From assembly GCA_944322625.1 (NCBI GenBank), contig CALUPN010000014.1, positions 1 to 34,331 on the forward strand: a stretch of 34,331 nt of DNA. Direction: 5' to 3'. This DNA comes from Candidatus Gastranaerophilales bacterium. GTDB lineage: Bacteria > Cyanobacteriota > Vampirovibrionia > Gastranaerophilales > Gastranaerophilaceae. Within the stretch, counting starts at the first letter, position 1, and each line of letters starts with the position of its first letter. The notes under the pieces are model-generated. The model was given only the letters and a program-made list of their open reading frames with translations. It did no database searches and was not told where the DNA came from. Shown piece after piece: positions 1,603-34,181 of the stretch. The position numbers were made by a program, and so were the translations under genes.

Positions 1603-1670
1603 AATGTAAAGTTTTGTAACAAAATAAAGCCGTTGTGAAATTGAATACTTTTTAAATACTTTATATATAT
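1603..1670 (+). promoter_or_regulatory. RpaB-type HLR1 operator plus conserved promoter module
   Basis: 1603-1620 read on the minus strand is GTTACAAAACTTTACATT, a perfect match to the RpaB operator HLR1, (G/T)TTACA(T/A)(T/A)NN(G/T)TTACA(T/A)(T/A). The AT-rich core TAAATACTTTATATATAT ends at 1670 and contains a likely -10 (TATATA, 1663-1668), with TTGAAT at 1641-1646 as a possible -35. The operator is about 55-72 nt upstream of the predicted start, where activator HLR1 sites usually lie. The same module, with identical internal spacing, is repeated at 22261-22328. HLR1 is known from photosynthetic cyanobacteria; its use here is inference. Confidence 0.65.
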
Positions 1671-1702: not shown

Positions 1703-2833
1703 ATGGCTAGAATTAATTGTCACAGCGCATTTAAACATTATGAAATGTTCCACTCACGCGGCGGAGACGTAATTAATATTGGCAGCAATAACACTACAAT
1801 ATTTAACTGCGGCGGAAGCCATTTAGGCGGCGGCTTCTGGGGCGGATTCGGGTTAGGACTTGGAAATGCCTTTGGCAGTTTATTCAGCGGCTTTGGCGGT
1901 TTCGGAATGGGCGGTTTTGGTTTCCCTTCATTCGGCGGCGGTTTCGGTAACTTTGGCGGCGGCTGGAGCAATCCGTGGGGTAACTCTGGCGGAAGTACAC
2001 GTTCTGCAAACAGTTCCAATAATACTTGTCATTGTAATGATAACACTTCAGACATAAAAGAAGATGCTGACCAAAAGAAATTAAAGAATTTAATCAACCA
2101 AATTAAAGGCTTTGTAAAAGATAAAAATGACGGAAAACCTGTTGATCCAAATGCTATTGCAAAGCTCAGACAAGAACTTAGAGATCGAATAGCAAAACCG
2201 CTTGATGATATTTACAAAGATAACAATATCAATCATTATGAGCTTTTGCTAAAAGATCTTAACGAGGCATTTCCGGAAGCAACGGAGGCTACGACGACTC
2301 CGGCAGCTACTACAGAAGCAGCTACTACGGCCCCAACGACAACAACTCCGGCAACAGCTACAACGACTCCGGCAGCAGAAGCAGCAACACCAGCTACAGA
2401 AGCAGCAACTCCTGCCGCAGAAGCAGCTACTGCAACAGAAGAAACAGAGGCAGCTGCTAATAATGAAGAAACAGAAAATCCTCATACATACTTACCAGGC
2501 TATACAAACTATGACGGAAAAACTGAATTAAACAACGGTGATGTCATAAGAGCACACGATAAAAGCGGAAAGACAAGAGATACAGAAAGTGTTAACGGCA
2601 AACCGTCTACAATTACTAAATCTGAAGGCTCTCATCCGCAAATAATTGTTATACATGACAAGAAAGATATAACATATAAATTTGACAAGAAAAATGAATA
2701 CGGTGAATATATATACGTAAGCGATCAAGACCATCAGGAATATATACTCCAGAAACATGGTGATAAATATGAATTAATTCAATACGATTGGCACGAAGGA
2801 TATGGTAAAAAAGACTGGAGTTCTAAAGAATAA
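1703..2833 (+). CDS. Gly-rich / Thr-Ala-rich protein of unknown function
   Basis: 376 residues in four blocks: a short N-terminus (DVINIGSNNTTIFNCGG); a Gly/Phe-rich segment (about 37-100, many GGFG units); a charged helical part (about 115-195); a Thr/Ala/Pro/Glu-rich linker (about 196-258); and a C-terminal domain rich in Lys, Asp and Tyr (about 260-376). There is no signal peptide or membrane helix, so if it is exported the route is unusual. The composition resembles a structural or surface protein. The start is supported by GAGGT upstream. It has its own RpaB-type promoter module at 1603-1670 and a strong terminator just after the stop. I do not recognise a family. The Thr/Ala linker has biased codons (aca/gca/act), typical of a slippage-prone repeat. 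Confidence 0.85.
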   Translation: MARINCHSAFKHYEMFHSRGGDVINIGSNNTTIFNCGGSHLGGGFWGGFGLGLGNAFGSLFSGFGGFGMGGFGFPSFGGGFGNFGGGWSNPWGNSGGSTRSANSSNNTCHCNDNTSDIKEDADQKKLKNLINQIKGFVKDKNDGKPVDPNAIAKLRQELRDRIAKPLDDIYKDNNINHYELLLKDLNEAFPEATEATTTPAATTEAATTAPTTTTPATATTTPAAEAATPATEAATPAAEAATATEETEAAANNEETENPHTYLPGYTNYDGKTELNNGDVIRAHDKSGKTRDTESVNGKPSTITKSEGSHPQIIVIHDKKDITYKFDKKNEYGEYIYVSDQDHQEYILQKHGDKYELIQYDWHEGYGKKDWSSKE

Positions 2834-21803: not shown

Positions 21804-22232
21804 TTAGCTCAAACTGTAATCAAAATCTTCTTGAATATTGCTTGAAAGCATAGATTGAAGTGATTCCATATAAGCATTTACTTCTTCTAATTCAGCACTG
21901 TCAGTTGTAATTTGTGCATCAATAGCAGTTTCCCAAGCTGTTAAATCGTTAAACATTTCCTGGTATTTTGCAGTAATCTTATCAATTTCTTCTTCAAATT
22001 CAGGGATTTCAGTATAGTCTAAATATTCACCCTGTAAAGATTCGTCTTGTTCAAATAAAGATTTAAAATAGTCTCTGACAGAATGAGATTCTGCATTTTT
22101 AAGAGATTGAGCATCAGCTTGTGAATAAGTTGCAAGAGATTTCTGAGATTGAAGCTCGGTAATTTCGAGGTTCAATTGATTTCTTCTTAACTTGTAGCTT
22201 AATAATGTTTCGTGTAAATTTGCGATTGCCAT
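21804..22232 (-). CDS. Coiled-coil protein of unknown function
   Basis: 142 residues, acidic and almost wholly helical. A start-proximal coil (LHETLLSYKLRRNQLNLEITELQSQ) is followed by further heptad-like stretches (about 75-125), with no Cys. There is no signal peptide; the size and helical hairpin look resemble secretion-system or flagellar accessory coils, but no family is recognised. It has its own RpaB-type promoter module (22261-22328) lying in the 3' end of rnhA, nearly identical to the one before the 1703 gene, so the two proteins are probably coregulated. A modest GGTGA ribosome site lies 9 nt upstream. Confidence 0.85.
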   Translation of the reverse strand: MAIANLHETLLSYKLRRNQLNLEITELQSQKSLATYSQADAQSLKNAESHSVRDYFKSLFEQDESLQGEYLDYTEIPEFEEEIDKITAKYQEMFNDLTAWETAIDAQITTDSAELEEVNAYMESLQSMLSSNIQEDFDYSLS

Positions 22233-22260: not shown

Positions 22261-22328
22261 ATATATATAAAGTATTTAAAAATGATGTGATTTCAATAGG
22301 GATAAATATTGTTACAAAACTTTACATT
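22261..22328 (-). promoter_or_regulatory. RpaB-type HLR1 operator plus conserved promoter module (second copy)
   Basis: 22311-22328 is GTTACAAAACTTTACATT, identical to the operator at 1603-1620 (opposite strand, same orientation to its gene). After an equal 28-nt gap comes the core whose minus strand reads TAAATACTTTATATATAT (within 22261-22282). The operator overlaps the rnhA stop codon at 22322-22324. Confidence 0.65.
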
Positions 22329-22794: not shown

Positions 22795-23076
22795 CTAAGC
22801 AGCAACACCTTTAATTTCAGAGATAAGGTATTTAGCAACCCATTCAAAATCTTTATTATTATTAGCAGCTTTTTTAAGATATTCAACAGAAGCTTCGCCG
22901 ATTCTGATAAGAGTCATTGCAACAACTCCGCGTTTAACACCTCTTACAACCTGCAGTTGATTAACAAGTTCAGGAACAACAGCCGTGCCTTTGTCTACCA
23001 AAATATTTTCAATTTTGTTTTTAGTTGTATTGTCTGCTGTTTCTAATTTGCCAAGCATTTCTTCTACTGATTGCAT
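22795..23076 (-). CDS. Small HEAT-repeat-like protein
   Basis: 93 residues from the ATG at 23076, which has AAGGAG 6 nt upstream; the ATG at 23091 has none and itself lies before that site. Helical, with HEAT-like pattern: [45 protein letters not shown], i.e. 'a.p.Ll..L......r..aa..L..ig....e.L..a'. It ends GVAA. No catalytic residues. It precedes rnhA by 2 nt in one transcript. A TATAAT (23116-23121) provides the promoter. Function unknown. Confidence 0.8.
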
Positions 23077-23115
23077 ATCTTTCTCCTTCATATTTCATTC
23101 GTTCTTTGCATTATT

Positions 23116-23187
23116 ATTATAGACTAAATTTTTCTGATATTAAGATTTCCTTACATAATCTTAATATCGATTGTAAAGATATGTAAT
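23116..23187 (-). promoter_or_regulatory. Promoter (TATAAT) with upstream near-HLR1
   Basis: TATAAT on the minus strand at 23116-23121 serves the HEAT-like gene. At 23170-23187, ATTACATATCTTTACAAT (minus strand) matches HLR1 at all defined positions but the first (A for G/T). Its orientation would also suit a plus-strand promoter toward speD. Confidence 0.45.
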
Positions 23188-23206
23188 ATTTATATTGGCA
23201 TACGCA

Positions 23207-23242
23207 AGGCCCCTCCCTTTTGAGGGAGGGCTGGGGTGGGTG
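23207..23242. repeat. Short GC-rich hairpin repeat (CACCCACCCCA family)
   Basis: CCCTCCCT/AGGGAGGG hairpin (23211-23230) followed by CTGGGGTGGGTG, the inverted counterpart of the CACCCACCCCA end at 14279. It has a REP-like layout. Confidence 0.7.
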
Positions 23243-23333
23243 CTGATTGAGCTTAAAATATTAAGGGAGTTTATAAGTTAAGGAGAAATATATTTTATTG
23301 CGTTAGACTAAAGTCTACCCTATACTCTGCTGC

Positions 23334-23490
23334 AAACAAGTTCCACGCCGCGAACCTGCTAAGAGTAAGCATAACAATAGTGAGCGAAAGAGTGCGGGTT
23401 TACCCGCAGCAGCCATTCAATCCCACGCCCGTAAGGGCGTAGAAAACATTTGCGCTTTCTCTTTCATTTGGACCTTTTCTTTCCCTTTTA
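23334..23490 (+). repeat. Structured dispersed repeat, copy A
   Basis: It starts around CACGCCGCGAAC, contains ATAGTGAGCGAAAGAG, hairpin TGCGGGT/ACCCGCA (23393-23408), hairpin ACGCCC/GGGCGT (23425-23440) and a C/T-rich tail. Copy B lies inverted at 27650-27846, and both stems show paired base changes between copies. A small palindrome TAGACTAAAGTCTA (23304-23317) lies just before it. No gene is seen between 23077 and 23657. Confidence 0.75.
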
Positions 23491-23657
23491 CTCGCAACAA
23501 AATAGATATAAAAGGACATGAAAAATTGTAACAATTTCTTAATAATCATGGGAAAAAGTGTAAAAAGTACAAATTTTTAGTTTTTTATAGTAATATATAG
23601 AAGTTAGTAAAAATTGATTGGTGCAGTATTGCACCGGTAGCAAAGGAGGCACATGAA

Positions 23658-27461: not shown

Positions 27462-27525
27462 ATTGTAAAGATTTGTAACAATATCGAGAAAAATATTAAA
27501 GTTTTTTTGGAAAATGTCGTTAATA
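27462..27525 (+). promoter_or_regulatory. Third HLR1 operator with degenerate promoter
   Basis: 27462-27479 on the minus strand is GTTACAAATCTTTACAAT, a perfect HLR1. At a spacing like the other modules a weak core follows (TTAATA, 27520-27525) and then ATGTAAG, also present downstream of the other two cores. The next plus-strand gene (28069) is separated from it by the inverted-repeat element. Confidence 0.5.
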
Positions 27526-27646
27526 GAGAATGTAAGATATGTAATCAATCGCTAATGTAACACAATACCTATTGTGTTACATTGGGTCTTTTATTTTAGG
27601 GGTTAAATATCTGTTTTTATTGATATTTATCCCTTTCATTTACCCC

Positions 27647-27692
27647 TACTTTTCTTTCTCTTTTTTTGCGATAGAAAAGAGAAAGAAAAGTA
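27647..27692. repeat. 18-bp perfect inverted repeat
   Basis: TACTTTTCTTTCTCTTTT and AAAAGAGAAAGAAAAGTA flank a 10-nt loop (27665-27674). The right arm is followed by further C/T-poor GAAAG sequence shared with the repeat family. Confidence 0.8.
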
Positions 27693-27846
27693 GCAAAAGA
27701 AAGAGAAAACACGCGGCTGTTTCCTATGCCCTGACGGGCATTGAGTACGTTTTGCGCTTACCCTCCTTGACTAAGCCGGTGAACCGGCTCTCTTACGCTC
27801 ACTATCGCTGCTAACGCAGTACGTTCGCGGCGTGCCCCTTGTTATA
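27650..27846 (-). repeat. Structured dispersed repeat, copy B
   Basis: The minus strand matches copy A at 23334: CACGCCGCGAAC, GATAGTGAGCGTAAGAG, then hairpin GCCGGT/ACCGGC (27775-27788) in place of A's CGGGT stem, then ATGCCC/GGGCAT (27726-27741) in place of ACGCCC/GGGCGT, and the C/T-rich tail. Stem pairs differ but pairing is kept. Confidence 0.75.
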
Positions 27847-28068
27847 TTTGGGTTTTAGCTTCTATTCTGCGCACTTCCCGCTCCAATCCGGGGAATTAGG
27901 GAGTAAGATAACTTTTTGTTGTACATTCTGAGCCCAAAACACGCTCCTTTCTTTACTTTTGCCCCCAATGTAACACAATAGGTATTGAGTTACATTGAAA
28001 GTAATAAAAATTAGCTAATTTATTATAAAAAAATTAAAAGTTAAACAAAACGAAAGGAGTATTATTTT

Positions 28069-29781: not shown

Positions 29782-29862
29782 AGTCTTTTATTTGTAAAAA
29801 TTTGTTAATAGTTTGGCAATTTTTATTCTTTATATGACTTAAGATGAAAGGAAGGTCGTAGT

Positions 29863-33392: not shown

Positions 33393-34181
33393 ATGGCTGA
33401 AAATGAAGAATTACAGGAGATGGGAACAGAAGAAGGGGCTCATCAAAAAATATTGGTTGCAGATGATGAAGCCAGTATCAGAAGAATTTTAGAAACCCGT
33501 CTTAAGATGGTAGGTTATGATGTTGTTACAGCTGAAGACGGCGAAGAAGCCGTTGAAGTATTTAATAAAACCAATCCGGATTTGGTAGTGCTTGATGTTA
33601 TGATGCCAAAAATGGACGGATACGGTGTTACAAGAGAAATTCGCAGAACTTCTGATGTACCGATTATAATATTAACTGCCTTAGGTGATGTTTCTGAAAG
33701 AATTACAGGTCTTGAATTGGGTGCAGATGACTACGTTATAAAGCCTTTCAGCCCTAAAGAGTTAGAAGCCCGCGTTAAAGCTGTTTTAAGAAGAACTATA
33801 AGCAAGGATATTATAATTCCGGCATCATCAGGCGCAGGCGCAAGTATACCAAATTCTAAAAACAGCAAAAATATAATAACAGCAGGTGCTATAAAGATTG
33901 ATACAGCTCGCAGACAAGTATACAGAAAAAATGAACGCATAAGATTGACAGGTATGGAGTTCAGTTTGCTTGAACTGTTGGTTAATAATTCCGGACAAGC
34001 TTATTCAAGAAACGAAATCTTACAACATGTATGGTCATACCCTGCAGACCACAGAATCGATACTCGTGTAGTTGATGTTCATATTTCAAGACTTCGTTCG
34101 AAGTTGGAAACAGACCCGACAAATCCGGAATTAATATTAACAGCACGTGGAATCGGTTATATGTTCCAAAAGATTAACTAG
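33393..34181 (+). CDS. rpaB: RpaB-like OmpR-family response regulator
   Basis: 262 residues. The receiver domain (18-135) has Asp24-Asp25, phospho-acceptor Asp68 (VVLDVMMPKMDGYG), Thr95 and Lys117. A Ser/Ala/Asn linker (about 138-160) leads to an OmpR-type winged helix (about 165-260) with RLTGMEFSLLELLVNNSG, RNEILQHVWSY and RVVDVHISRLRSKLE. The sequence is closest in my recall to cyanobacterial RpaB (Ycf27), including ADDYVIKPFSPKELEARV and DPTNPELILTARGIGYMFQ. RpaB controls high-light and other genes through the HLR1 operator. HLR1 sites occur in this window at 1603, 22311 and 27462. The partner kinase is not adjacent. AAGGGTGG precedes the ATG, and a perfect terminator follows. Confidence 0.9.
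   Translation: MAENEELQEMGTEEGAHQKILVADDEASIRRILETRLKMVGYDVVTAEDGEEAVEVFNKTNPDLVVLDVMMPKMDGYGVTREIRRTSDVPIIILTALGDVSERITGLELGADDYVIKPFSPKELEARVKAVLRRTISKDIIIPASSGAGASIPNSKNSKNIITAGAIKIDTARRQVYRKNERIRLTGMEFSLLELLVNNSGQAYSRNEILQHVWSYPADHRIDTRVVDVHISRLRSKLETDPTNPELILTARGIGYMFQKIN

Follow-up and report, generated by a model that had tools for sequence, protein, structure and literature searches.

Fixed spacing of the HLR1 operator before sigma-28, SigF-like and other core promoters suggests a role for RpaB outside photosynthesis in Gastranaerophilales

The site at 1603 in this Candidatus Gastranaerophilales DNA matches HLR1, the operator of the cyanobacterial response regulator RpaB, and the same motif precedes distinct core promoters throughout the genome, in a fixed orientation and at fixed distances. 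The original prediction described an RpaB operator before a gene with no link to photosynthesis, with RpaB encoded in the same stretch of a non-photosynthetic lineage, and this much stands; its further suggestions, that such control is ancestral and that the proteins controlled are surface-like, are not supported, and it overlooked that the site belongs to a regulon linked with sigma-28 and SigF-like promoters. Our best reading of these sequences is that RpaB, acting together with several sigma factors, switches on flagellar and lineage-specific genes in Gastranaerophilales, and that the RpaB encoded in the window (the whole 34,331-nucleotide stretch analysed, contig 14 of a 2.1-Mb assembly of 156 contigs) probably operates a programme quite different from light control. 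We are evenly balanced on the wider proposal that RpaB is an integral co-activator of nearly the entire sigma-28 regulon and of the SigF-like promoters in some Gastranaerophilales, one response regulator gating three holoenzyme classes and a cyanobacterial light regulator serving flagellar and lineage-specific genes without light.

The 1603 site has no mismatch to the HLR1 consensus KTTACAWWNNKTTACAWW, which specifies 16 positions (the figure of 12 given at first was a miscount), all of which match; read along the direction of transcription, the consensus is WWTGTAAM-NN-WWTGTAAM. The site had been predicted to lie where activating HLR1 operators lie relative to a -10, and this holds in part: a -10-like element and a start codon at 1703 do follow it (Table 1), but if TATATA at 1663–1668 is taken as the -10, and the transcription start is placed from it, the operator would span about -72 to -55, slightly further upstream than the -66 to -45 from which HLR1 activates in cyanobacteria (PMC13421787). 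We consider it probable that this is a working HLR1 operator, which RpaB would bind and through which it would activate.

Table 1. Operators, promoter elements and genes of the window, with strand and remarks
Feature	Position	Strand	Remarks
HLR1 operator upstream of gene 1703	1603..1620	-	GTTACAAAACTTTACATT; promoter-forward AATGTAAAGTTTTGTAAC
TGAAATT, putative -35-like element	1636..1642	+	15 bp after HLR1; kept in most orthologues
ATACTTTATATATA core, -10-like	1656..1669	+	35 bp after HLR1; 28 copies in genome versus 1 for control
Target gene 1703	1703..2833	+	Gly-rich N-terminal half, Thr/Ala-rich linker, C-terminal beta domain
Target gene, 142 aa	21804..22232	-	no Pfam or NCBIfam family
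ATACTTTATATATA core	22262..22275	-	35 bp after HLR1 22311
Second perfect HLR1	22311..22328	+	18-mer identical to 1603 site; upstream of gene 21804-22232
Candidate HLR1, one mismatch	23170..23187	-	reversed relative to downstream gene 22795-23091 (minus)
Third perfect HLR1	27462..27479	-	promoter-forward on plus strand
Sigma-28-type promoter TAAAGTTTTTTTGGAAAATGTCG	27497..27519	+	17 bp after HLR1 27462
Candidate HLR1, one mismatch	29791..29808	-	promoter-forward, then GGCAATTTTT; candidate for gene 29898
rpaB, proposed regulator	33393..34181	+	NCBIfam RpaB equivalog NF045944

Searching 58 genomes of the genus for orthologues of gene 1703 gave 40 with a match, from which 30 loci were fetched; setting aside one locus cut off at a contig end and another (L200) that is the window itself left 28 readable orthologues. 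Alignment of their upstream regions, a check proposed with the original prediction, revealed HLR1 with 0–2 mismatches in all 28, at a distance of 76–113 bp (mostly ~80) from the start codon and followed by ATACTTTATATATA or a close variant, in most cases after a TGAAATT-like element. The promoter is better conserved than much of the protein, since orthologous proteins are as little as 24% identical to that of the window. A family search found no known domain in the 1703 product, and its predicted structure (mean pLDDT 63.8, with confidence limited to a helical part at ~121–190 and the C-terminal beta domain at ~265–360) had no PDB match at E ≤ 0.001; with neither a known domain nor a matching fold, the description of the protein as surface-like is not supported. 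Four residues at the N-terminus (C6, H7, H12 and H17) are invariant among the orthologues and possibly form a metal site.

The identification of the gene at 33393 as rpaB is sound: its product scores 355.8 bits against a cut-off of 330 for NF045944, and it is the only one of three OmpR-type regulators in the assembly to pass. Compared with the consensus of 30 cyanobacterial RpaBs, it shows 72% identity overall and an identical recognition helix, DTRVVDVHISRLR; the other two regulators are ~40% identical and lack DTRVVDVHISRLR. One of these two, the RpaA orthologue on contig 37 (so assigned by its best PDB match, 9dvt) or the PhoB-like regulator on contig 20, might instead be the main binder of a real operator, an alternative that we judge unlikely. 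Both are OmpR-family proteins, the targets of RpaA and RpaB overlap in cyanobacteria, with promoters common to the two in Synechococcus (PMC13421787), and RpaB was not found in some assemblies with an HLR1 excess. Their recognition helices (MLRVHVGALRNKIE and AVDVQIVNLRRKL) differ, however, from RpaB's VVDVHISRLRSKLE, and it is RpaB's helix that is conserved with cyanobacteria, where binding of HLR1 by RpaB is established. RpaB exceeds the cut-off in 371 of 386 genomes of the phylum. Seven assemblies of the order Gastranaerophilales have no RpaB above the cut-off yet hold HLR1 above control (in G280, 25 versus 2 in 10 contigs), and the absence is likely due to missing contigs; presence or absence of RpaB was uninformative as a natural knock-out, since incompleteness may explain the few assemblies that lack it.

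The main finding is the geometry of the promoters. Simple patterns applied downstream of the 60 perfect HLR1 sites in the genome assigned 20 core promoters to the sigma-28 class, 7 to the SigF-like class and 9 to the ATACTTTATATATA type, and 24 of the 60 sites had no core promoter classable in this way. Firstly, HLR1 stands 16–17 bp before 26 of 34 sigma-28 promoters in the genome (TAAAGTTT-N-GCCG; counted as distinct strict promoters, HLR1 with ≤2 mismatches, gap 15–18), as compared to a mean of 0.04 and a maximum of 2 in shuffled upstream DNA. This count is free of HLR1 selection bias because the set came from its own genome-wide search, in which TAAAGTTT followed after ~11 bp by GCCG had 35 matches versus 1 for the control, and promoters without a perfect HLR1 were fetched separately. 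Where HLR1 is perfect, the gap is 17 bp at 15 promoters, 16 at two and 28, about one helical turn further, at one, and no perfect HLR1 stands in reverse orientation at the sigma-28 promoters. Secondly, HLR1 lies 14–15 bp before all nine SigF-like promoters, those of flagellins included (shuffled maximum, 1), a count favoured by the fetching of these loci mostly for their HLR1. Thirdly, about half of the 28 promoters of the ATACTTTATATATA type, which serves gene 1703, have a forward HLR1 at a gap of 35–36 bp (25–26 in two); the remainder carry a GCAATTTTT element, joined in several by a repeat that resembles HLR1 and points the other way. At four loci (L260, L276, L286 and L287), the reversed HLR1-like repeat (such as CTTTACATTTCTTAACAAA) and the GCAATTTTT element upstream of ATACTTTATATATA make up a second promoter subtype.

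The pairing of sigma factors with these promoters is a putative one. The genome encodes a FliA/WhiG sigma factor (232.3 bits, above the cut-off of 189.6), and its SigB/SigF/SigG-type sigma factor has TIGR02980 as best match at 152 bits; because this falls below the curated cut-off of 234, we call the GTGTTA...GTGGMAT promoters SigF-like only.

Judged from sequence, binding by RpaB, activation rather than repression, and a signal could be fitted together as follows. The RpaB of 33393, probably phosphorylated, would bind the 1603 site upstream of the -35 region as a pair arranged head to tail, one on each of the half-sites set 10 bp apart, and would help RNA polymerase to initiate transcription of gene 1703. 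The same arrangement would operate genome-wide with different holoenzymes, at sigma-28 promoters, at SigF-like promoters and at 1703-type promoters, ~15 bp ahead of their -35-like element, making RpaB a general co-activator that sets the level of flagellar and lineage-specific genes. The signal would possibly arrive via an NblS-like kinase encoded on contig 11 (best match 321.8 bits, below a 1000-bit cut-off that no control genome reached either). It seems quite improbable that the sites are RpaB operators that mainly repress, as at cyanobacterial high-light genes: RpaB represses where HLR1 lies at -38 to +23 (PMC13421787), but in this genome all three main promoter types have HLR1 ahead of their -35 element, with a fixed spacing and helical phase that fit activation.

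A genome scan, also proposed with the original prediction, revealed a clear excess of perfect HLR1, with 60 sites (33 forward, 27 reverse) as compared to 2 for a control consisting of the reversed HLR1 pattern, of the same composition. This is the opposite of the outcome, a scan with no excess, that was named as refuting the prediction. All 60 are intergenic, with none inside long ORFs. Among 155 TTACAWW...TTACAWW pairs with spacers of 0–24 bp, 60 have a 10-bp period, while the control has 57 over all spacers; the dominance of this period led us to reject the 11-bp period of the PhoB type. The case for HLR1 rests on genome-wide perfect matches because the window by itself, which has three perfect copies, carries little signal when ≤3 mismatches are allowed (54 HLR1-like matches versus 41 expected). 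The genome is AT-rich and the consensus mainly A and T, but a chance match, or a promoter part such as an UP element, is scarcely credible in the face of this excess over a composition-matched control, the strict 10-bp period of the half-sites, the G/C positions kept by orthologues and the presence of the same motif before three unrelated core promoters.

The genes behind these sites include flagellins, which lie downstream of SigF-like promoters, as well as LysM proteins, a lysozyme-LysM protein, EF-hand proteins, a 5'-nucleotidase-type phosphoesterase, an HD-GAF protein, SurE and the RNA polymerase beta subunit gene. A family search of the targets found no Pfam family for most of them and no photosynthesis families among those scanned. 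For ClpP, 19 bp from an HLR1 site, and a few other genes, the proximity may be accidental. The sigma-28 promoters at four loci (L005, L007, L190 and L193) are followed by genes of one protein family, whose members begin like MGMAASQARLLTLT and may leave the cell through the flagellar apparatus; the three scanned (L005, L007 and L190) had no Pfam match.

Two features set the assembly among the non-photosynthetic relatives of cyanobacteria: an RpaB above the curated cut-off, and neighbours of its genus within a phylum that includes large cyanobacterial genomes too. HLR1 counts were compared across the phylum. The motif is abundant in genus g1 (621 versus 43 for control, 13 genomes) and in g15 (232 versus 23, 4 genomes), and shows no excess in the other Vampirovibrionia families f4–f6 (4 versus 11, 10 genomes; all three comparisons summed by hand), although nearly all f4–f6 genomes have RpaB. 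Ancestral control is accordingly doubtful, and an origin ancestral to Vampirovibrionia is not supported. Many photosynthetic cyanobacteria have a moderate HLR1 excess, and family f32, with genomes mostly of 1.6–3.7 Mb, has almost none. The sigma-28 composite, HLR1 plus TAAAG, occurs 229 times in g1 versus 0 for control (summed by hand), and since it is concentrated in g1 and g15, the coupling to sigma-28 looks like a lineage elaboration instead of an ancestral state. Composite matches listed elsewhere in the phylum mostly have a different look, with TAAAG often within a third TGTAAAG repeat. In 84,980 species genomes, the HLR1-sigma-28 composite matches listed came mainly from Candidatus Gastranaerophilales or MAGs, gut or rumen appearing in many of the source names, and a few scattered exceptions were in Thermodesulfovibrio, Saprospiraceae, Pontibacter and Pleurocapsa.

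This arrangement shares with the RpaB-HLR1 regulon of Synechocystis PCC 6803 and Synechococcus PCC 7942 its 18-bp direct-repeat operator, an orthologous regulator with the same recognition helix, and the placing of the operator ahead of the core promoter, near the activating position if the putative transcription start is right (PMC13421787). It differs in its targets, which are flagellins and lineage-specific genes rather than photosynthesis or high-light genes, and in the fixed spacing that couples the operator to sigma-28 and SigF-like promoters. The CRP-activated sigma-28 promoters of E. coli, aer and trg, also have a DNA-bound activator that aids the sigma-28 holoenzyme from a defined distance; there, two promoters have CRP centred at -49.5 (PMC2859248), whereas here 26 of 34 strict sigma-28 promoters carry the operator, which lies at a greater distance upstream, and a response regulator would take the place of CRP. 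CtrA is likewise a response regulator that controls flagellar genes, in alphaproteobacteria (PMC6180460), with another operator and in another lineage. Homologues of RpaA, RpaB and NblS have been reported in Melainabacteria (Di Rienzi 2013; Soo 2014; PMC3787301, PMC4040986), in passages that give the genes alone, with no operator or target gene; the RpaB homologues have been on record since 2013, 'another function' being suggested for them (PMC3787301), and flagellation of Melainabacteria was already known. While RpaB homologues in this group are known, then, we found no earlier report of the operator, the regulon or the sigma-28 coupling in a search of openly available journal articles. The ~60 candidate target promoters, with their testable geometry, offer a direct route to the role of RpaB without photosynthesis and entry points into the little-studied gene regulation of a gut lineage; the coupling, if true, would be a large addition to the few known activator-dependent sigma-28 promoters (PMC2859248).

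The window also holds two dispersed repeats. No gene was found within ~550 bp of the sigma-28-type promoter at 27497, a span occupied by a MITE-like insertion of 444 bp (27554–27997) with 33-bp terminal inverted repeats (97% alike), just after the HLR1 and promoter; it has a relative in L017 (72%), and its end repeats recur in L190 and L001. The other repeat, at 23191–23560, has copies 74–92% alike in L057, L030, L045, L035, L282 and L014.
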